A stretch of DNA of 8,652 nucleotides from a bacterium (lineage in GTDB: Bacteria > Blakebacterota > Blakebacteria > Blakebacterales > Blakebacteraceae), in assembly GCA_025774205.1 (NCBI GenBank), contig JALGWK010000063.1:1-8652 (forward strand), in the 5' to 3' direction. Below, in pieces: positions 1-8,652 of this stretch. Made by a program: the position numbers and the translations under genes. The notes beneath the pieces are model-generated. The model ran no database searches, was not told the DNA's origin, and saw only the letters and a list, made by a program, of their open reading frames with translations. The first letter of the stretch is position 1, and every line of letters starts with the position of its first letter.

Positions 1-30
1 CCGGTGGATAGAGTGGGGGATATCCACCGG
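1..30. repeat. Perfect 10-bp inverted repeat with 10-nt spacer
   Basis: Positions 1-10 (CCGGTGGATA) and 21-30 (TATCCACCGG) are exact reverse complements separated by 10 nt. The repeat lies inside the coding region of the YigZ-like gene and touches the window edge, so it could be longer upstream. An RNA stem of at least 10 bp would form in the mRNA. No function can be assigned. Confidence 0.6.
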
Positions 31-222
31 GTGTTGTCATCGTTCGAGGTATCGTATCATGAACAGTCGGTGGAAGGCACTTCTGCCACGATCGGTATTG
101 CGGTCCGGGCTGATGATCTCGATCGTCTGCGGGAACGGATCTCCGACGCCTCGGGGGGCACGGGACACCTCCGAGACCGGATCATGAGCAGGAAGGGAAC
201 GGAACCCGATGAACAGCGATGA
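1..222 (+). CDS. YigZ/IMPACT-family protein, C-terminal part (5'-truncated)
   Basis: The reading frame is open from the first base and ends at TGA 220-222, so only the last 73 residues are present and the true start lies upstream. The visible part reads like the C-terminal DUF1949 (EF-G domain V-like) module of the YigZ/IMPACT family: a helix with IHRVLSSF, a strand pair around a TIGIAV segment, a helix with DDLDRLRERISDAS, then a GG turn. This layout aligns by eye with E. coli YigZ (its GIEALL, VLLRVALP and KLADFSRG segments). The family is linked to translation-related or RNA-binding roles, but its biochemical activity is poorly defined. The N-terminal catalytic-like half is outside the window, so the call rests on one small domain. 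The stop codon lies 14 nt inside the following ROK kinase gene, implying co-transcription. The alternative is another protein with a ferredoxin-like fold. Confidence 0.55.
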   Translation, partial: PVDRVGDIHRVLSSFEVSYHEQSVEGTSATIGIAVRADDLDRLRERISDASGGTGHLRDRIMSRKGTEPDEQR

Positions 223-1192
223 TCTCATCCGGGCCATAGGTATCGACCTGGGCGGATCCGCTATCAAGAGCGGACTCGTGAGCAGAGATGGGAGCATCAA
301 TGGCTTCAACCGGGTTACCATCGACAGGATGGCCGGTTCGGAGTACCTGCTGGAGCATATCCAGGCCGAGATCGATCGGCTCGAGGCCCTGGCCGATGAG
401 CGCGGTCTGCAGGCGGTCGGGGTTGGTGTCGGCAGTCCCGGCAGCATCGAACGGTCAACCGGCAGAATCCACAAATCCCCGAATTTCCGGGGCTGGGATG
501 ACTTTCCTCTCCGTGACCGCCTGGTGCATATGACCCCCCTGCCGGTCTATCTGGCCAATGATGTGAACGCCGCCGCGATGGGTGAATTGAAGTTCGGCGC
601 CGGCGGGGACTTCAGGAACTTCATCATGATCACTCTCGGGACCGGTGTCGGAGGCGCCCTGGTCATCGATGGTCGGCTTTATGACGGCGCCGAAGGCTTC
701 GCCGGTGAGATCGGCCATATGGTGGTCGCTCCCGACGGTCCTGACTGTCCCTGCGGGAACCACGGCTGCCTGGAGCAGTTTGTGGGCGCTCCCGCCCTCA
801 TCAGGCGCGCCAGGGAACTCCTCCAGAAAATCGACCGCACCGGCCCCCTCGCGCAGCTCGATCCCGAAGAGATCACGGTGGAAGCTATCGGGCAGGCCGC
901 GGCCGATGGTGATCCGGTCGCCCGGGCTGTCCTCGCCGAGATGGGGCGGTGGCTCGGGATCGCCTTCATTTCCCTTATCAACGTCCTCGATCCCGACTGC
1001 ATCCTCGTCGGAGGCGGCATCGCCCAGGCCGGTCCGCCGCTGTTCGATGTGATCAGGAGAACGGTCGGGAATCACGCGATGTCGGGGAACGCCCGGGTGG
1101 TCCCTGTCATCACTGCTACTCTGGGACCCCGGGCCGGCGCTGCCGGCGCGGGCGCTCTCGCGCTATGGCCGGAACTGACCACAACAGGGTGA
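209..1192 (+). CDS. ROK-family sugar kinase, probably glucokinase
   Basis: This 327-residue protein has the length and motif order of ROK-family kinases, which phosphorylate glucose or related sugars such as N-acetylmannosamine or fructose with ATP in the cytoplasm. Visible motifs are the phosphate-1 loop at residues 11-20 (GIDLGGSAIK), the catalytic N117-D118 pair with candidate catalytic Asp118, the phosphate-2 loop GTGVGG at 144-149, and the sugar-binding EIGH at 167-170. The ROK zinc site is complete: His170 with Cys180, Cys182 and Cys187 in the CPCGNHGC motif. A C-terminal adenosine-binding stretch (ILVGGGI) lies at 265-271. The ATG at 209 is preceded by a GGAAGG Shine-Dalgarno at 191-196. 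The gene overlaps the upstream YigZ-like gene by 14 nt and its end overlaps the start of lptD, so the three are probably one transcript. Substrate specificity cannot be read from the sequence; glucose is the usual substrate for this subgroup. Confidence 0.9.
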   Translation: MNSDDLIRAIGIDLGGSAIKSGLVSRDGSINGFNRVTIDRMAGSEYLLEHIQAEIDRLEALADERGLQAVGVGVGSPGSIERSTGRIHKSPNFRGWDDFPLRDRLVHMTPLPVYLANDVNAAAMGELKFGAGGDFRNFIMITLGTGVGGALVIDGRLYDGAEGFAGEIGHMVVAPDGPDCPCGNHGCLEQFVGAPALIRRARELLQKIDRTGPLAQLDPEEITVEAIGQAAADGDPVARAVLAEMGRWLGIAFISLINVLDPDCILVGGGIAQAGPPLFDVIRRTVGNHAMSGNARVVPVITATLGPRAGAAGAGALALWPELTTTG

Positions 1193-3816
1193 CGAACGCC
1201 ATCGCCGGGCGGCCGTCGCTTCGGCAGGGCCGACCGGTGGTGGTGTCGGCTCTGGCCCTGACCCTCCTGGCACTCTTTCAGCCTGCCTTACGGGCGGAGG
1301 CAGGGGTGTACGCCTCCCTGCAGGAGCCGCCCCCTCCGGCCCGCCAGGATACCCTCGCGATTGCGATCGGTGACACGATCCTCCCCGCCGGAGAAGGGCA
1401 GAGCTCGATCCAGGACAGTCTGGTGACCGGCTGGAACACTCTGGAGAGCGATGGCACGGTGACCACCTTTACCGGCTCGCCCGAGGAACCCGCCTGGATC
1501 AAAATGCAGGATCTGGAGGTCCGGGCCGGGATCATCATCTTCGACAATGAAAAGGAGATGATCACGGCGCTCCCCCTGCCTGACACGTCCGCCACCGGGG
1601 ACGGGACGCCGCTTCACCGGCCCGCTTTCATTCAGGGCAGCACCGACATGGTCGGCGAGCTGATGTATTACGATCTCAAAACCGATCGGGGCAGGGTCTA
1701 CGGCGGCAGAACCACCTATGAGTTCGGTTATTACTTCGGCTCGGAGATCGATGCCCATCGGTCGGAACCCAATTACCTGACTGTTCAGGGCGGCCGTTTT
1801 ACGACCTGTGAACTCGATGATCCTCATTACTGGTTCTCGTCGGATCAGATGAAGATCATCCCGGATGACAAGGTGATCGCCAAGGGGATCAGGTTCCACC
1901 TCCTCGGTATCCCGTTCCCGCCGAAACTCTTTACAATCCCCGGATTGAATCTGGAGGTATTCCCATCGCTTCCATTCATCATCAAGTCGATCCAGTCGGG
2001 CCGGCAGTCGGGTCTTCTCATGCCGCAGTATTCGAACTCGCCCGACCTGACAGGAGTTACCCTGAGGGGATTGGGGTACTACTGGGCGCCAAGTAACCAT
2101 TTCGATGCCCGGGTGGCGGTCGATCTCACCCAGAGGGTCGGGGTGATCGTGCGCGGGCGGGTACGGTACAAGTGGCGTTACACGATCAATGGGAACATCG
2201 AAACCACCTACAACATCGATCATCAGGCCGGGATCCGGAGGTGGGAAACGCGGTTCAACCACAGTCAGACCGTCGATCCCACGCTGCGCATCTCGGCACG
2301 GGGGAACTTCTCCTCCTCATCCGACTTCAACAAGAGGCTCTCTCAAGATCTCGAACGACGGCTGCAGCGGGTTCTGAGAAGCAACGCCAACCTCTCAAAG
2401 CGTTTCTCCGACGGCAGCAATCTCTCTCTGGCGGTCAGTCAGACCAGGTTCCTCGACAGGGGTATCACCACTACCCAGCTGCCGACCGCCACCTACCGGA
2501 TCTCCCGGCGCCCCCTTTTCGGCAGTACCGGTTCGAAGCGTGAGAGCGGCGGACCGGGCGGTCTCTCCGGATTCGGGCTCACCGAGGAGCGTGATGAGGA
2601 GGATATGCTCCCGAAGTGGTACGAGAACTTCTATATCGATTACAACGTGTCGCTCCGGTCATCGATCAAGAACGAACTCCAGGAGATGGGAACAGCCGCC
2701 GAACGGGATTCGATCACCCAGGAGATCGGGATGGAGCAGTCGACGAATATCACCTATTCAGGCAAAGTCTTCGGTTGGCTCAACCTCCAGCCCAATTTCT
2801 CGGCCCGGGAAGCCTGGTATTTCGGAGACAAGGCCCGGGACGGATTCCAGCGACGCTTCCTCTGGAACTCCTCGCTCAGGGCCAGCACCAAGATCTACGG
2901 CATCCTCGACCATCCCTTCGGGGCCGAGGTTGCCTTCCGGCATGTGCTCGAACCGAGCCTCTCGGTGGGTTACGCGCCCGATTTCACCGACATCGGTGAC
3001 ATCCCCTCCCTCTTCGGTAGTAATCCCGGAGGGCAGAAGTCACTGAACTACAGTCTCAGCCAGACTTTCCAGATGAAACGGTGGGTTGGCGAGGAAGAAC
3101 GGCAGTCCGAACTGGCCAGGATCACCACTTCCGGATCGTATAACGCCCGCTCGAAGGGCAGAAAACTGTCGGATGTAAATACTTCACTGATTACGAAAGT
3201 CGGGAGCGTACTGAATCTGCAGCTTAGAGCAACACATTCGTTCTACGAACCCGACACTGAGACGATCCGGCGATCGCCACTCATGGTGACAGCCAGCTAC
3301 CGGAGTTCCATGCGGCTGGATAGCAGGACGGTGGCCGGCTGGTTTGGCAGAAAGGCTGAGGACGAGGAAACCGGGGAGGAAGAGCAGGAACCCGGGGAGA
3401 TTGAAGAGACACCCGAACAGGAAGCTCTGCAGGAAGAGGTTCCGTTCGGTCTCCCGACCCGGGATACCGGAAAGCTCAGATCTCCGGGCATCGAACAGTC
3501 CCGCGCCGGTGGCGGCAGTTGGAACCTGGCAGTGAGTCATAACTACTCCTGGCGAAGGAGCAGTGAGGTTTCAACCCATAGTGTTGACGGCTCTTTGACA
3601 GTGAACATTCCGAAGTGGACGTTGTCGCTATCGAGTCGATACGACTTCGCCCGGAAGGAACTCGTAAGGTTGTCGTTCAACATCTATCGGGATCTGCACT
3701 GCTGGGAGGCTCGACTGCAGGTCGTACCGGACGGACCGGGCAGGGGATACTGGTTCGTAATCGCCATCAAGGACATCCCTGAGATCAAGTACGAACAGCG
3801 AAGAACCGTTTACTGA
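1165..3816 (+). CDS. lptD: LPS-assembly outer-membrane protein LptD
   Basis: This is an 883-residue outer-membrane beta-barrel that, in known systems, works with LptE to insert lipopolysaccharide into the outer leaflet. A Sec signal peptide is visible: basic residues before 25, hydrophobic core about 25-38, and an AEA cleavage site near 44-46. An OstA/LptA-like periplasmic domain follows (about 60-240), carrying the LptD hallmark RFTTC with Cys215 and then DPHYWF. Next come the conserved RQSGLLMPQYS and GYYWAP segments (about 285-310) and a long region of alternating aromatic/polar strands. The C-terminus has DLHCWE with Cys846. These two cysteines are the only ones in the protein. A Glu-rich insertion lies at about 733-760. 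I use ATG 1165, which overlaps the kinase gene by 28 nt; GTG 1189, in a GTGA overlap with the kinase stop codon, is an equally plausible start giving 875 residues and a shorter signal n-region. Neither has a good Shine-Dalgarno, which fits translational coupling to the kinase. The sequence type resembles Bacteroidota or Gemmatimonadota LptD. Confidence 0.88.
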   Translation: MAGTDHNRVTNAIAGRPSLRQGRPVVVSALALTLLALFQPALRAEAGVYASLQEPPPPARQDTLAIAIGDTILPAGEGQSSIQDSLVTGWNTLESDGTVTTFTGSPEEPAWIKMQDLEVRAGIIIFDNEKEMITALPLPDTSATGDGTPLHRPAFIQGSTDMVGELMYYDLKTDRGRVYGGRTTYEFGYYFGSEIDAHRSEPNYLTVQGGRFTTCELDDPHYWFSSDQMKIIPDDKVIAKGIRFHLLGIPFPPKLFTIPGLNLEVFPSLPFIIKSIQSGRQSGLLMPQYSNSPDLTGVTLRGLGYYWAPSNHFDARVAVDLTQRVGVIVRGRVRYKWRYTINGNIETTYNIDHQAGIRRWETRFNHSQTVDPTLRISARGNFSSSSDFNKRLSQDLERRLQRVLRSNANLSKRFSDGSNLSLAVSQTRFLDRGITTTQLPTATYRISRRPLFGSTGSKRESGGPGGLSGFGLTEERDEEDMLPKWYENFYIDYNVSLRSSIKNELQEMGTAAERDSITQEIGMEQSTNITYSGKVFGWLNLQPNFSAREAWYFGDKARDGFQRRFLWNSSLRASTKIYGILDHPFGAEVAFRHVLEPSLSVGYAPDFTDIGDIPSLFGSNPGGQKSLNYSLSQTFQMKRWVGEEERQSELARITTSGSYNARSKGRKLSDVNTSLITKVGSVLNLQLRATHSFYEPDTETIRRSPLMVTASYRSSMRLDSRTVAGWFGRKAEDEETGEEEQEPGEIEETPEQEALQEEVPFGLPTRDTGKLRSPGIEQSRAGGGSWNLAVSHNYSWRRSSEVSTHSVDGSLTVNIPKWTLSLSSRYDFARKELVRLSFNIYRDLHCWEARLQVVPDGPGRGYWFVIAIKDIPEIKYEQRRTVY

Positions 3817-3840
3817 CGCGGGTTTTCGCGGGATAGCCGC

Positions 3841-3870
3841 TTGACACTCTTCTCAGCTGCCGCCTAACAT
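3841..3870 (+). promoter_or_regulatory. Sigma-70-type promoter for the HU gene
   Basis: A perfect -35 box TTGACA at 3841-3846 is followed after 18 bp by TAACAT at 3865-3870, which matches four of six bases of TATAAT. Transcription would start near 3877 and give a leader of roughly 48 nt before the HU start codon. The site lies in the 108-nt gap between lptD and HU, so HU can be expressed independently of lptD. Confidence 0.65.
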
Positions 3871-3911
3871 CGAGGCAGACTTTTGCTGGGAGAGGCTCAC
3901 TAGCAACCCCC

Positions 3912-3919
3912 AGGAGGTG
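3912..3919 (+). promoter_or_regulatory. Strong ribosome-binding site of the HU gene
   Basis: AGGAGGTG at 3912-3919 is near-complementary to the 16S rRNA 3' end and sits 5 nt before ATG 3925. It is the strongest Shine-Dalgarno in the window, as expected for an abundant nucleoid protein, and it fixes the HU start codon. Confidence 0.8.
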
Positions 3920-3924
3920 GAAGC

Positions 3925-4197
3925 ATGACGAAGAAGGAAATCGTCGCGATGGCAGCCGATGAGGCTGGAATCTCGCAGGCCAAGGCTGAAGCAGCCATCA
4001 ACGCCGCATTTGACGGGATCACGAATGCCCTGAAGCAGGGTGACAAGGTGACATTCGTCGGATTCGGTACCTTCGCGACCTCGCATCGGAAGGCCCGGAT
4101 CGGTCGCAACCCCCGGACCGGCGAGTCGATCCAGATCAGGGCCAGCAACGTGCCGAAGTTCAAGGCCGGCAAGGCCCTGAAGGAAGCGATCAACTAG
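3925..4197 (+). CDS. HU-family DNA-binding protein
   Basis: This 90-residue protein is the canonical size of bacterial HU, a dimeric nucleoid protein that bends and compacts DNA without sequence specificity. The N-terminal two-helix dimerisation body covers about 1-40. The beta-saddle has the GFGTF core at 46-50, and the DNA-binding arm carries RKARIGRNP at 55-63, including Pro63, the residue that intercalates DNA in this family. The C-terminal PKFKAGKALK (77-86) completes the HU/IHF signature. IHF subunits are the main alternative, but the arm and tail are HU-like. It is monocistronic: it has its own TTGACA promoter, an AGGAGG ribosome-binding site and a rho-independent terminator 46 nt after its stop codon. 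Confidence 0.96.
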   Translation: MTKKEIVAMAADEAGISQAKAEAAINAAFDGITNALKQGDKVTFVGFGTFATSHRKARIGRNPRTGESIQIRASNVPKFKAGKALKEAIN

Positions 4198-4243
4198 CAC
4201 AGTTGCACCGCTGAAGAAGTCTACATCTGGCCAGCTGGTGAAT

Positions 4244-4276
4244 AAGGAGCAGGGGTTTCGACCTCTGCTCCTTTTT
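4244..4276 (+). terminator. Rho-independent terminator after the HU gene
   Basis: A 13-bp stem (4244-4256 with 4261-4273) contains one G-U pair, a TTCG tetraloop at 4257-4260, and a T5 run at 4272-4276 that overlaps the last two stem pairs. It is a textbook intrinsic terminator for the HU transcript and ends 41 nt before the DMT transporter start codon. Confidence 0.92.
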
Positions 4277-4281
4277 CCTTG

Positions 4282-4309
4282 TTGAAACCACCCCGACAGG
4301 CGGTACCTT
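4282..4309 (+). promoter_or_regulatory. Possible promoter for the DMT transporter, leaderless-type spacing
   Basis: TTGAAA at 4282-4287 is followed after 16 bp by TACCTT at 4304-4309, a weak -10 match of the TAnnnT type. The last base of the -10 lies 8 nt before ATG 4318, so transcription would begin at or next to the start codon. No Shine-Dalgarno is visible before that ATG. The gene needs a promoter here because the HU terminator lies directly upstream, but the match is modest. Confidence 0.35.
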
Positions 4310-4317
4310 GGCCTGCC

Positions 4318-5205
4318 ATGAAGCGCTCTACACAGGCCGATATCGTCTTCCTTGGCATCGCCATCCTCTGGGGATCATCCTTCGCCCTGGCCAAGGGCGC
4401 CCTGGCTCATGTCAGCCCGATTTTCTTCGTTTTCATGAGGTTCATGCTCGCCGGAGCCATCTGGGGGGCCCTCTGGCAAAAAAAAATCAAAAAAAATGCG
4501 CGGCCCGGAACATGGCTCAGAGGACTCACCCTGGGGGGGGTGCTGGGTGGCGGTTTCATCTTCCAGACGATCGGTCTCGAACTGACCGAAGCCAGCATGT
4601 CGGGCTTCATTACCGGCCTCTGGGTGGTGATGGTGCCCGTCCTGGTGATCGTGATCCGGCGCACCATGCCGAAGACCACCTCGATCATCGGGGTGCTCAT
4701 CTGCACTCTCGGCCTCTGGATCCTCGCCTCCCCCTCCGGGGCCGGTTTCAACCTGGGTGATCTGTTCACCCTTCTCTCGGCAACCTGCTTTGCCCTGCAC
4801 ATCGTCTTCGTGGAGATGTTCACTGCCAGCCATGACACCCGGGCCCTCACGGTCATCCAGGCGGTCGGGGTTCTGGCGATAACCATCCCGTCGATGTTCA
4901 TCTTCGAATCGCCCGCGGTGGAGTGGACCTGGCCCCTGATCTGGCGCTGGCTGGTACTGGGGACGATGGCGGCCGGGACCCTGGCCATGCAGATCCACTG
5001 GCAGCGGTTCATCAGCGCCACCAGGGCGGCGGTGATCATCACCATCGAGACTCCGCTGGCGGCTGTCTTCGCGTTCCTCTTCCTGGGAGAACTGCTGACC
5101 GGGACGGCCTACCTGGGCGGCGGACTCATTTTCCTGGGCGCCCTGGTTGCTGAAGGGGGCGCCCGTCTCTTCGGGAACCGGAATAACCCGGTCGGAGTTC
5201 AGTAA
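4318..5205 (+). CDS. EamA/DMT-superfamily inner-membrane transporter
   Basis: This 295-residue, very hydrophobic protein has the ten-helix, two-repeat layout of EamA (DUF6, RhaT/YdcZ-like) drug/metabolite transporters. Repeat 1 covers about 8-138 and carries AILWGSSFALAKGAL and a conserved FMRFMLAGA segment. Repeat 2 covers about 146-277 and ends with the signature IETPLAAVFAFLFLGE (243-258). Such proteins export or import small metabolites, often amino acids or their analogues; the substrate cannot be predicted. I chose ATG 4318 over the in-frame TTG 4279, because the TTG follows directly on the U-tract of the HU terminator and would add a non-membrane N-tail. The loop after helix 2 contains two long A-runs (A9 and A8 at 4478-4496) in an otherwise GC-rich gene, and a G8 run follows at 4533-4540. 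The gene converges on the minus-strand peptidase gene with only 9 bp between stop codons. Confidence 0.88.
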   Translation: MKRSTQADIVFLGIAILWGSSFALAKGALAHVSPIFFVFMRFMLAGAIWGALWQKKIKKNARPGTWLRGLTLGGVLGGGFIFQTIGLELTEASMSGFITGLWVVMVPVLVIVIRRTMPKTTSIIGVLICTLGLWILASPSGAGFNLGDLFTLLSATCFALHIVFVEMFTASHDTRALTVIQAVGVLAITIPSMFIFESPAVEWTWPLIWRWLVLGTMAAGTLAMQIHWQRFISATRAAVIITIETPLAAVFAFLFLGELLTGTAYLGGGLIFLGALVAEGGARLFGNRNNPVGVQ

Positions 5206-5214
5206 AGGTTCAGC

Positions 5215-6096
5215 TCAATATCCTGACCGCAGTTTCTGAAACGCCAGCACCACCTCCATGATATCATCGCTCCGGTAGGTAAGCTCCCAGTCGCCGGTCC
5301 GTTCCGCACCGGGATAGTACTGCCCCGGATAGACGGTGGTCTCTTCCTTCAGCGTCAGGACCATGGTGTAGGGAGACTGCAGCCTGTAAGGCTCGAACCG
5401 GTCCAGGTTCTGCAGGGCCTCGGTGACACCCCGCCGGATCATGTCACGGGACACCTCCGGATGATGATTGATCGCCGCGCCGCCGATCCCCTCTTTCACC
5501 GCCGCCCACCCGACATCGCCGAACATCCCGAGACACTGTTCACAGATGGCCATGTCACCGGCCACAAACGCCACCGGGACATCAAAGTGACCGGCAATGA
5601 GGGCGTTCACACCCGCCTCGGGCAGTGAGACGCCGTTGATGGAGATATCCATGACGTTCCCGGTCATGGTGTGCTCCAGCAGGGCGTCAGGGGTTCCGGC
5701 CTTGGCGTGGTAGCCGATGAAGATGACGGCGTCGAAGCTCTCGTCGATCCCCTCCATCATGCTCAAAGGCCCGCCCGACCATTCTCGTATGAGCCTGGCG
5801 CGGCGATGGAGCATATCAGGAAGAATGTTGCGCGCCGAACCATGCGAATCCCTGACCACGATCGTTTCCGCTCCCCCCGCAATGGCCCCTTCTACAGCCG
5901 CGTTAGCCTCCTGCGTCATAATCCGGCGGAAGTAGTCGTAGTCCTTGCCCTCCCGGCTGGTTTCTTCCCAGTTCACCACCCCGGTGATCCCCTCCATGTC
6001 GACCGAGATGAATACTTTCAGCCCGTCTCCCGCCTGTGCCTGAGCGATGGTGGCACAGAGAAGCAGCGCTCCGAGTACTGATGCGATCCTTTTCAT
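5215..6096 (-). CDS. Secreted M55-family (DppA-type) D-aminopeptidase
   Basis: This 293-residue protein matches the M55 D-aminopeptidase family, zinc enzymes that release N-terminal D-amino acids from peptides such as D-Ala-D-Ala. Motifs are SVDMEGITGV (31-40), RDSHG (82-86), GYHAKAG (128-134), EHTM (141-144) and NGVSLPEAGVNA (154-165). By alignment to B. subtilis DppA, the metal ligands would be Asp33, Glu35, His85, His130 and Glu160, with catalytic His142. Their spacings match DppA to within one residue, so the site appears intact. Unlike cytosolic DppA, it starts with a Sec signal peptide (basic KR, hydrophobic core about 4-18, cleavage at AQA 18-20 or A22), placing it in the periplasm or outside the cell. 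ATG 6096 is preceded by a good GGAGAGG ribosome-binding site. It is the last gene of the minus-strand group, 48 nt after the DUF362 gene and with no terminator between them. Peptidoglycan-derived or dietary D-peptides are possible substrates by inference. Confidence 0.87.
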   Translation of the reverse strand: MKRIASVLGALLLCATIAQAQAGDGLKVFISVDMEGITGVVNWEETSREGKDYDYFRRIMTQEANAAVEGAIAGGAETIVVRDSHGSARNILPDMLHRRARLIREWSGGPLSMMEGIDESFDAVIFIGYHAKAGTPDALLEHTMTGNVMDISINGVSLPEAGVNALIAGHFDVPVAFVAGDMAICEQCLGMFGDVGWAAVKEGIGGAAINHHPEVSRDMIRRGVTEALQNLDRFEPYRLQSPYTMVLTLKEETTVYPGQYYPGAERTGDWELTYRSDDIMEVVLAFQKLRSGY

Positions 6097-6144
6097 GATC
6101 CTCTCCGGTTCTTCTATTGGGGCCGGTGATCCGACCGGGACGGT

Positions 6145-7038
6145 CTAGATCAGCACATCCTCCATCCAGCCGATCTTTATCAGTTCGATCTCGTCCAGGT
6201 TTGCGACTCCCAGTCCATGCCGGGTGTCAGCGTACCCCACGTGTTTCGTCGAGGTCCCACCGCGCGGCGGGCGCTCGTAGAACGCCTTGCGCATCTCTTC
6301 CATGAGCTTCACGCCGAGAGCGTCGACCGCTACCGGATCGGTGCTCACGAACATCCCCTTGTACTGCCAGGTGGCGTCGGGCGCGTACCGGTGGGGGCCG
6401 ATTGAGTGGAAGAGGGGAGTCAGTGCCACCAGGATGTTCAGGCGGCACTTCCCCTTGCAGATCGGCAGGTTCCAGATTTCCCCCAGGTCGGCGCAGGAAT
6501 CGTCATGCCACTCGGCTGGCTGGTCGAAGAGGATGAAGTTCTTGATGCAGCCGCCGATCCCTGACCAGTCATGGGCCCGGATGGGCCGTGCGTTGAGGAG
6601 CGCGGTGGCGTTCTGGAAGTTCGGGTCCCGCAGGACGCCCCTGTCGAGGGTCGATATTCTCTCCTCGGGGATCCCGACCGCCATGGCCCGTTCCTTGAGC
6701 ATTTCATTGAGTTCGGGCGGGGTGGGGAGGGGAGGATAGACGTTGGTCTTGATGCCGAGGGTGTCGGTGGGTTCGAGAAGAGAACTCCAGCAGGCGGCGG
6801 CATCATCGTTGTCGAACAGGGTTGTCATCGCGTCATCGAGCATCTGCTCGAATATCGGGCGATCGATGGTTCCCTCCTCGTCCATAACGTCCTTGTGCCT
6901 GACCAGGACCACTTTCGAGGCCCGCTTCGGGTTGTTGATACCATCCCTGGCCGCTGAGAGTCCCAGGGTCATCCCCGCGACACCGAAGGAGGTCTCTTTT
7001 ACGAAATCACGGCGGGTACGGATCCTGTCATCACTCAT
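6145..7038 (-). CDS. DUF362 domain protein with Tat-type signal
   Basis: This 297-residue protein fits the DUF362 family. The segment at 160-175 with a G-x-KNF core, the stretch around ILVALTPLFHSIGPH (202-216) and GMFVSTDPVAVDALG (228-242) follow the family pattern (KN, a D/T-x-L...GP block, then S-x-DPVAVDA). The N-terminus has a twin-arginine motif, TRRDFVK at 8-14, followed by a short hydrophobic stretch (16-30), suggesting export in folded form through Tat. That usually means a cofactor or metal is bound in the cytoplasm. Five cysteines (83, 164, 182, 194, 198) include a CKGKC pair, but there is no ferredoxin-type CxxCxxC motif. Family function is unknown; some members carry 4Fe-4S domains, which are absent here. 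The ATG overlaps the stop codon of the preceding lipoprotein gene (ATGA), and an AAGGAG ribosome-binding site lies about 8 nt upstream, inside that gene. The downstream gene is the secreted M55 peptidase. Confidence 0.75.
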   Translation of the reverse strand: MSDDRIRTRRDFVKETSFGVAGMTLGLSAARDGINNPKRASKVVLVRHKDVMDEEGTIDRPIFEQMLDDAMTTLFDNDDAAACWSSLLEPTDTLGIKTNVYPPLPTPPELNEMLKERAMAVGIPEERISTLDRGVLRDPNFQNATALLNARPIRAHDWSGIGGCIKNFILFDQPAEWHDDSCADLGEIWNLPICKGKCRLNILVALTPLFHSIGPHRYAPDATWQYKGMFVSTDPVAVDALGVKLMEEMRKAFYERPPRGGTSTKHVGYADTRHGLGVANLDEIELIKIGWMEDVLI

Positions 7039-7982
7039 TGTTCGGCTCCTTCAATGCTTGCCTTGATGGCGGCGAGCAGTGCCCGGGCGCTCCCGGCTGA
7101 CTGCGCGTCGAATACCGCAAACACATATGCCCCCGATGCATCGGCGGCGCTCCACAGGCCGTCCTCGATCTCCACGGCCCCGTCCCTGTCCGCTTCCGGC
7201 AGATAGATGTCAAGGAAGCTGGTGAAGACCTCGCCGGCCCGTTCACGATCGGGATACCGGACCACGAGCAGGTACCGGTATTCCTCGCCACTCTCGTAAT
7301 TGGCCATGACGGCCTCGGTGGAGGGATCGAGGCCGAGGATATTATCGTCGGAGATGAAGTACCAGCGGTTGAGATCGGTGTGCAGGTGGAAGTAGCGGAT
7401 CGTTTCCTCAACCAGGTCCTCTGACGGCAGCATCGTGAGGATCTCCGGCAGCTGACCCACTCCGGTGATATTCTCCGCAATGGCGCCGGCCAGCTCCAGA
7501 ACGTCCTGGTTCGATGCCTCTGTCTCCCGGAGCGTGTAGACGCTGACGTAATAACGATCCTTCCAGAAATTGACCTGTCCCGCCCACTGCTGGGATCCCT
7601 GACCGATTCCGATGTCCGCCCCCGAACGACTGCGGGCGAAGATGCCGAAGGCGTCAGCCGGATTCCCCATGTCGTACACTTCGATGGTGAGTTCCTGGTC
7701 AGGCTTCTCGAAACGGCGAACGAGCATCCCCCGGAAGTCGAAGGAGAGATAGACCTCTCCGGCGCCGTTCATGTAATCGAAGATCGTCTGATGATCGTAG
7801 GCGATGTCCGGGTAATCGACCGAGGACGTCCAGGTTTCGAGGGTCTCAGGAATGAAGTCAGCCAGGTCCATGGCGCTCCCTCCGGTCTGACAGGCCGGCA
7901 GATTCGAGGTGATGGAGACCAGTACGATCAGCAGCAGGGAGAGGGACACGGAAACGGGAGGTCTGTGCGGGTGGGCAGGCAT
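7035..7982 (-). CDS. Predicted lipoprotein, DUF6599-like
   Basis: This 315-residue protein starts with a lipoprotein signal: hydrophobic core about 11-26 and lipobox LPAC with lipidated Cys31. The following residue is Gln, so by the E. coli rule it would go to the outer membrane. The mature part has the motif YMNGAGEVYLSFDF (70-83) followed by a strand-rich segment with TIEVYDMGNPADAFGIF (99-115). I associate this pattern with DUF6599, a family of unknown function, from memory only. No catalytic motif is recognisable. A second half (about 180-310), with RYFHLH and repeated YLLVVRYPD/YVFAVFD strand patterns, resembles the first half in general alpha/beta character and could be a second copy of the fold. 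I chose ATG 7982 because it places the lipobox at a normal distance; the frame is open further upstream but that part lacks signal character. It is the first gene of the minus-strand operon and overlaps the DUF362 gene by 4 nt. Confidence 0.7.
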   Translation of the reverse strand: MPAHPHRPPVSVSLSLLLIVLVSITSNLPACQTGGSAMDLADFIPETLETWTSSVDYPDIAYDHQTIFDYMNGAGEVYLSFDFRGMLVRRFEKPDQELTIEVYDMGNPADAFGIFARSRSGADIGIGQGSQQWAGQVNFWKDRYYVSVYTLRETEASNQDVLELAGAIAENITGVGQLPEILTMLPSEDLVEETIRYFHLHTDLNRWYFISDDNILGLDPSTEAVMANYESGEEYRYLLVVRYPDRERAGEVFTSFLDIYLPEADRDGAVEIEDGLWSAADASGAYVFAVFDAQSAGSARALLAAIKASIEGAEQ

Positions 7983-8159: not shown

Positions 8160-8652
8160 ATGACACCGAGTCCTCCAGCAAAATCCCCTGAACCACGCGC
8201 TACGATCATGGATGCCGACCAGCTCGGGCAGGCACTCGATCGGATCGCCCATGAGATCATCGAGCATACCGGGGTGCCAGCCTGTGATCTGGCCCTGATC
8301 GGTATCAAGACCCGTGGGGTGCCGCTCGCGGAAAGACTCGCCGGGATCATCTCGGATAGCGGGAAATGCGAGGTACCGGTCGGAGTGCTGGATATCACCC
8401 TCTACCGCGACGATTTCAGGGCTCGCGAAAAGACCCCGATCGTCGGCGTGAGCGATATCCCCTTCGATGTCGATGGCCGGACTCTCGTTCTGGTGGATGA
8501 CGTGCTCTTCACCGGTCGGACGGTGAGAGCCGCCCTCGACAGCCTGATGGACTACGGCCGGCCGCTGGTGATCAGGCTGGCGGTCCTGATCGACCGACAG
8601 CAGCGCGACCTGCCGATCCGGGCCGACTTCGTCGGGCAGGAGTCGCCCACCG
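8160..8652 (+). CDS. pyrR: PyrR, bifunctional pyrimidine regulator / uracil phosphoribosyltransferase (3'-truncated)
   Basis: The frame opens at ATG 8160 and runs off the window after 164 codons; PyrR is usually about 180 residues, so only a short tail is missing. Family hallmarks are clear: [12 protein letters not shown] (25-36), [15 protein letters not shown] (46-60), [12 protein letters not shown] (74-85), the PRPP-binding loop [13 protein letters not shown] (110-122), [14 protein letters not shown] (133-146) and [10 protein letters not shown] (151-160). In Bacillus, PyrR binds pyr mRNA in response to UMP and attenuates pyrimidine genes; the protein also converts uracil and PRPP to UMP. 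The ATG gives a tail of about 13 residues relative to B. subtilis PyrR. The in-frame ATG at 8208 would cut into the conserved N-terminus, so 8160 is preferred, although its Shine-Dalgarno is weak. Pyrimidine biosynthesis genes such as pyrB often follow pyrR, but they would lie outside the window. It is divergent from the lipoprotein/DUF362/M55 operon. Confidence 0.93.

Follow-up and report, generated by a model that had tools for sequence, protein, structure and literature searches.

A recurrent DUF6599–DUF362 gene pair with a predicted Tat-exported, LarA-related member, seen from a Blakebacteraceae contig

Three adjacent minus-strand genes of a Blakebacteraceae genome raise the question which of them belong together and which function they may serve. 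The window, i.e. the whole stretch of DNA analysed (8,652 nt), is one entire contig of an 86% complete MAG (G000). Two relatives carry a name, one as a bacterium MAG and the other as a Candidatus Zixiibacteriota MAG. The bacterial family Blakebacteraceae is represented here by four genomes (G000-G003); G001 is of the same genus as G000, and G002 and G003 share a genus. The original prediction described the three genes as an envelope operon and suggested that they act jointly on peptides with D-amino acids. Pfam confirmed the families that it had named, and the coordinates confirmed the order DUF6599, DUF362, M55 on one strand throughout:

7035..7982, minus strand: DUF6599 gene, 315 aa (Pfam PF20244, E=6.7e-34), product predicted to be exported, partner of DUF362
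6145..7038, minus strand: DUF362 gene, 297 aa (Pfam PF04015; hhalign to LarA, N-terminal domain, P=1.4e-5)
5215..6096, minus strand: M55 D-aminopeptidase gene, 293 aa (Pfam PF04951, E=1.6e-91; DppA 1hi9, E=4.3e-38)
7035..7038, minus strand: ATGA, in which the DUF6599 stop overlaps the DUF362 start, read from the sequence
6101..6106, minus strand: Shine-Dalgarno-like GGAGAG 5' of M55, read from the sequence

The start of the DUF6599 gene is an inner ATG, and the frame is open further upstream. DUF362 and M55 are separated by 48 nt, ending in CCGGAGAGGATC ahead of the M55 ATG. Overlap, gap and ribosome-binding site had been described correctly; likewise, no terminator-like site was found on the minus strand in the three-gene region. 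The sole promoter-like site there is at chance level. All three genes are under purifying selection, with dN/dS values against the same-genus genome G001 of 0.09 (M55), 0.08 (DUF362) and 0.23 (DUF6599).

The conserved unit consists of DUF6599 and DUF362 and is found in many bacterial families. More than 20 families contribute to the about 31 loci at which the two were observed side by side. The paired genes lie on the same strand, with a single divergent exception (G057:C117), and frequently overlap. Both gene orders occur; therefore, a single inherited arrangement does not by itself explain the link. DUF362 or LarA is located next door to about 31 of the 53 DUF6599 genes seen. Eight genomes were searched with both Pfam models; they had been chosen as carriers of DUF362 matches, irrespective of adjacency. 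In these, 15 of 23 DUF6599 genes adjoin DUF362 versus about 0.1 expected from 67 DUF362 matches in roughly 28,000 genes, with about 3,500 genes per genome as the authors' estimate. In many bacterial families, two protein families of unknown function are connected by gene order, and the LarA homology described below adds for one of them a link to an enzyme with an unusual cofactor. The claim of an undescribed envelope grouping holds for these two families, which are conserved far beyond the window's genome, and is not supported for the three-gene system, in which M55 is a local element. In the open literature, no paper on DUF6599 or on a function of DUF362 was found.

A recurrent third partner of the pair was not found among the loci viewed; the exceptions are two polyferredoxins, and aldehyde dehydrogenases of two kinds as neighbours. 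The membrane polyferredoxins (Fer4_5; L210:3244-5013 in G014 and L212:6875-8293 in G101) abut the pair in opposite relative positions. In G173 (L205), the pair shares an overlap with a flavoprotein of the succinate-dehydrogenase type. A D-Ala-D-Ala ligase is encoded upstream of the DUF6599-DUF362 pair in G057 (L034:2546-3652), a single case.

The DUF362 protein of the window matches PF04015 marginally but validly (28.1 bits, cut-off 24, E=2.6e-6). The match spans only residues 141-243, corresponding to the C-terminal half of the profile, and the protein shares the H-x9-K-N signature of the family. Motifs for export were located in both members of the pair:

7009..7014, minus strand: twin arginine R9-R10 of the Tat signal TRRDFV in DUF362, aligned RRxF in 32/32 paired proteins
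7890..7901, minus strand: possible lipobox LPAC, residues 28-31 of DUF6599, read from the sequence; LPGC in G001, no Cys in G002

The conserved motif TRRDFV with a hydrophobic stretch marks DUF362 as a predicted Tat substrate. In a multiple alignment, RRxF occupied the position of R9-R10 in 32/32 full-length paired DUF362 proteins versus 25/37 unpaired ones, two or three of the paired rows being overlapping copies of one locus. A ferredoxin motif was present in 0/33 paired versus 7/39 unpaired DUF362 proteins. The window protein belongs to a predicted Tat-exported branch of PF04015 without ferredoxin motif, the branch that pairs with DUF6599. By these motifs, predicted export belongs to the DUF6599-paired DUF362 proteins as a property of the pair. 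TatC was detected in all 13 genomes searched, G000 included. The TatC gene of G000 (G000:C124:12574-13194) is in three pieces in different frames, probably due to assembly frameshifts.

The DUF6599 protein is a clear member of PF20244 (117.5 bits, cut-off 27). Its hydrophobic N-terminus with LPAC makes it plausible as a lipoprotein and not more than that, because the Pro is atypical for a lipobox and the hydrophobic N-terminus of the G002 copy lacks Cys. A strongly hydrophobic N-terminal stretch is present in about 29 of 33 DUF6599 partners, and most of those without it are frames whose start is uncertain; just some of the 33 have a lipobox-like Cys. Three different export signals had been predicted for the locus: the twin-arginine motif of DUF362 and the Sec-type N-terminus of M55 were recovered, and the lipobox of DUF6599 proved weak. 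Sequence searches against the PDB yielded no relative of DUF362 or DUF6599. AlphaFold models of DUF362 (three sequences) and DUF6599 (two sequences) were poor, with pLDDT values of 44.6 and 54.9, and Foldseek comparisons from these low-confidence models gave matches without value. RseB/MucB-like matches of DUF6599 (TM about 0.2) came from the same kind of model and were left unused.

DUF362 and LarA (DUF2088) are placed in one Pfam clan (PMC11770544). A broad DUF362 profile aligned with the LarA profile over 155 columns (hhalign, P=1.4e-5); controls with the same query gave 0.012 for M55, 0.57 for DUF6599 and 0.77 for reversed LarA. Narrower profiles matched LarA weakly, i.e. one of seven close DUF362 proteins (P=0.0047) and a canonical-only one (P=0.0043), so that only the broad profile is clear. 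The window protein alone gave no Lar_N match in Pfam, and the homology is that of the DUF362 profile. In the reverse direction, the PF04015 model matches a LarA protein of G014 above cut-off (28.9 bits, E=1.6e-6), and the same gene is a strong Lar_N match. From these profile comparisons, DUF362 is judged homologous to the N-terminal domain of LarA. Four residues of the window protein were placed relative to LarA, whose cofactor-tethering Lys is number 184:

6748..6750, minus strand: K97, in the region aligned with the phosphate/carboxylate-binding Arg of LarA; 30/32 paired proteins
6571..6573, minus strand: H156, aligned with LarA His174 (hhalign); 27/32 paired proteins
6541..6543, minus strand: K166, aligned with LarA Lys184, the cofactor tether (hhalign); 31/31 non-gap paired proteins
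6505..6507, minus strand: H178, candidate equivalent of LarA His200, a Ni ligand; 30/31 non-gap paired proteins

The alignment places RAHDWSGIGGCIKN on SYHYYSGFTGGRKA, by which H156 corresponds to the second catalytic His of LarA and K166 to the tether Lys, to which the nickel-pincer nucleotide of LarA is bound (residue roles: PMC12611868, PMC7583248). H178 is a candidate nickel ligand placed solely by its position downstream of K166. N167 is kept in 31/31 paired proteins and D234 in 30/31. DUF362 shares with the LarA superfamily (PF09861, DUF2088) the N-terminal domain and the positions of His174 and the tether Lys, and its downstream His is a candidate for the place of the Ni ligand. The Arg75 region contains Lys in DUF362, as in LarA Sp and Bw (PMC12611868). 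Unlike LarA, DUF362 has no His aligned with the first catalytic His (His108), the stretch being occupied by D132-R133, and no LarA C-terminal domain was found in its about 300 aa (LarA about 430). LarA homologues with a single catalytic His are known, but in these the other His is the lost one (PMC12611868). DUF362 further differs from LarA by its predicted Tat export and its pairing with DUF6599, and its LarA-like cofactor is putative. Since His108 is a defining feature and lacks a counterpart, DUF362 is not a member of the LarA enzymes. The conserved residues suggest that the paired proteins possibly work like LarA.

The reading preferred here is that the window holds one copy of an envelope module of DUF6599 and a Tat-exported, LarA-like DUF362 protein, with M55 as a neighbour within the family only; its probability is put at about 45%. 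DUF362 would be a shortened LarA relative, folding in the cytoplasm around a cofactor that is probably LarA-like and may be held by K166 as tether and H178 as metal ligand. The folded protein would leave via Tat and, once in the periplasm, act on a small acid by hydride or proton chemistry of the LarA kind. DUF6599, exported through Sec or in lipoprotein form, would be the dedicated partner of DUF362 for anchoring or substrate delivery. The two proteins may associate physically, and their genes may be co-transcribed.

Rather doubtful is the wider claim that the pair represents an undescribed system of the periplasm with a wide distribution: an enzyme of the LarA clan would receive a nickel-pincer or similar cofactor in the cytoplasm, pass through Tat in folded form and be joined by a dedicated envelope partner. 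Such an exported nickel-pincer system would be, to the authors' knowledge, the first of its kind. A periplasmic LarA-clan function, if true, would assign a role to two families of unknown function. Specific questions follow from the pair, namely whether K166 carries a nickel-pincer nucleotide and whether DUF6599 binds DUF362. The clan link of DUF362 and LarA was already known; for the pair, its exclusive use of Tat-type DUF362 proteins and the alignment of active-site residues, no description was found in the open literature.

LarC is the nickel-inserting enzyme of cofactor synthesis. Of 52 genomes matched by the DUF362 profile, 45 contain it, versus 110 of 238 without a match (Fisher p=4e-8), an association that ignores phylogeny and genome size in genomes where LarA is common. 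In many of these genomes, LarC would also be needed by LarA or LarA-like proteins. Among the genomes with the closest DUF362 homologues, 9 of 11 contain LarC (p=0.05), and all of G000-G003 do. A strict requirement of the pair for LarC is ruled out by G047 (97% complete), which has the pair and lacks LarC. DUF362 as sole client of LarC in the window's family was dropped as well, as G000-G003 carry a LarA-like protein of the GSHGG type. LarA-like proteins of this other kind (G000:C306, L150:760-2070; G057:C15, L149:793-2067) have the motifs GSHGG and KPHTEF...GLLKM...YHR. They give weak Lar_N matches, occur in genomes with strong LarC, and possibly form a further branch of the clan.

LarA homologues at two loci provide further links. 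In G147 (G147:C119, L217:3968-6290), DUF6599 is followed by a LarA homologue on the same strand after a gap of 26 nt; this homologue has Thr at the position of the tether Lys and no obvious Tat motif. A Tat-type aldo/keto-reductase-like gene is located upstream of the two in L217. The LarA homologue of G089 (G089:C321, L147:1291-2724) has an intact H-x9-K and an N-terminal twin-arginine motif RREFV, by which exported LarA-type proteins may exist.

The main rival explanation, a periplasmic redox module, is prompted by three other pairs with polyferredoxins or a flavoprotein next to them. DUF362 would bind another cofactor or metal or transfer electrons, cytoplasmic insertion of the cofactor would be the reason for the use of Tat, and DUF6599 would link the protein to a membrane electron carrier. 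The Fer4_5 polyferredoxins of G014 (L210) and G101 (L212), the overlapping flavoprotein of G173 (L205) and the ferredoxin motifs of some unpaired DUF362 proteins are consistent with such a role. However, neither the window's pair nor the majority of the other pairs has a redox partner nearby, the ferredoxin motif is absent from all paired DUF362 proteins, and the conserved H-x9-K-N matches LarA, as may the downstream His; the redox module is considered unlikely.

Less probable still is a paired DUF362 protein without catalysis, i.e. a ligand or metal carrier with LarA fold for which DUF6599 would be the receptor or anchor. The missing first catalytic His and C-terminal domain of LarA would fit a binding protein, as would the predicted export of both partners. 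Against it, K97, K166, N167, H178 and D234 are nearly fully conserved over distant pairs, like an active site.

The M55 gene gave rise to the predicted joint function on D-amino-acid peptides, and it is the one gene outside the conserved unit. Its product matches PF04951 above cut-off (306.9 bits) and resembles DppA (1hi9) by full-length homology. In the alignment with 1hi9, D33, E35, H85, H130, H142 and E160 occupy the metal and catalytic positions of DppA. The protein differs from DppA by a Sec-type N-terminus, conserved in G001 and G003 as judged by eye, and by its score of 181.9 bits with the NCBIfam DppA equivalog NF058634, whose cut-off is 430. M55 follows DUF362 in G000, G001 and G003, i.e. 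in three of the four genomes of the family; the contig of G003 stops just upstream of DUF362, leaving DUF6599 out of view. G002 contains the complete pair, M55 is cleanly absent, and an aldehyde dehydrogenase gene lies directly after DUF362. In G003, the same aldehyde dehydrogenase comes after M55. The triple is not limited to the window's genome, as the original prediction required, yet it is limited to its bacterial family. Outside this family, M55 genes are located on other contigs or far from the pair. Thirteen other M55 loci were examined, mostly with flanks of about 6 kb to either side, some of them shortened by contig ends: DUF6599 was near none of them, and in one (G014) a DUF362 gene lies at a distance of 2.7 kb. 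As a neighbour of the pair, M55 is specific to the family, since it is absent in G002 and the 13 other M55 loci lack DUF6599. Being outside the conserved unit, it says little about the function of the pair, and a function guessed from this peptidase should be dropped.

A three-gene system, in which D-residues would be removed by M55 from fragments of peptidoglycan or from non-ribosomal peptides, with the other two proteins binding or processing the products, is the least probable explanation. The close same-strand spacing, the M55 ribosome-binding site, the intact catalytic residues of M55, its recurrence in three genomes and the ligase of G057 speak for it, but M55 is missing from G002 and from every pair outside the window's family, DUF6599 from the 13 other M55 loci, and the ligase was seen once. 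As main reading it was rejected because M55 is outside the conserved unit.

The genes on either side of the three are on the plus strand. Positions 1-5205 contain the last part of a frame similar to a YigZ/IMPACT protein and encode a ROK-family kinase, an LptD-like outer-membrane protein, HU and an EamA transporter, the latter convergent with M55. Positions 8160-8652 contain a phosphoribosyltransferase gene (PyrR-like), divergent from DUF6599.
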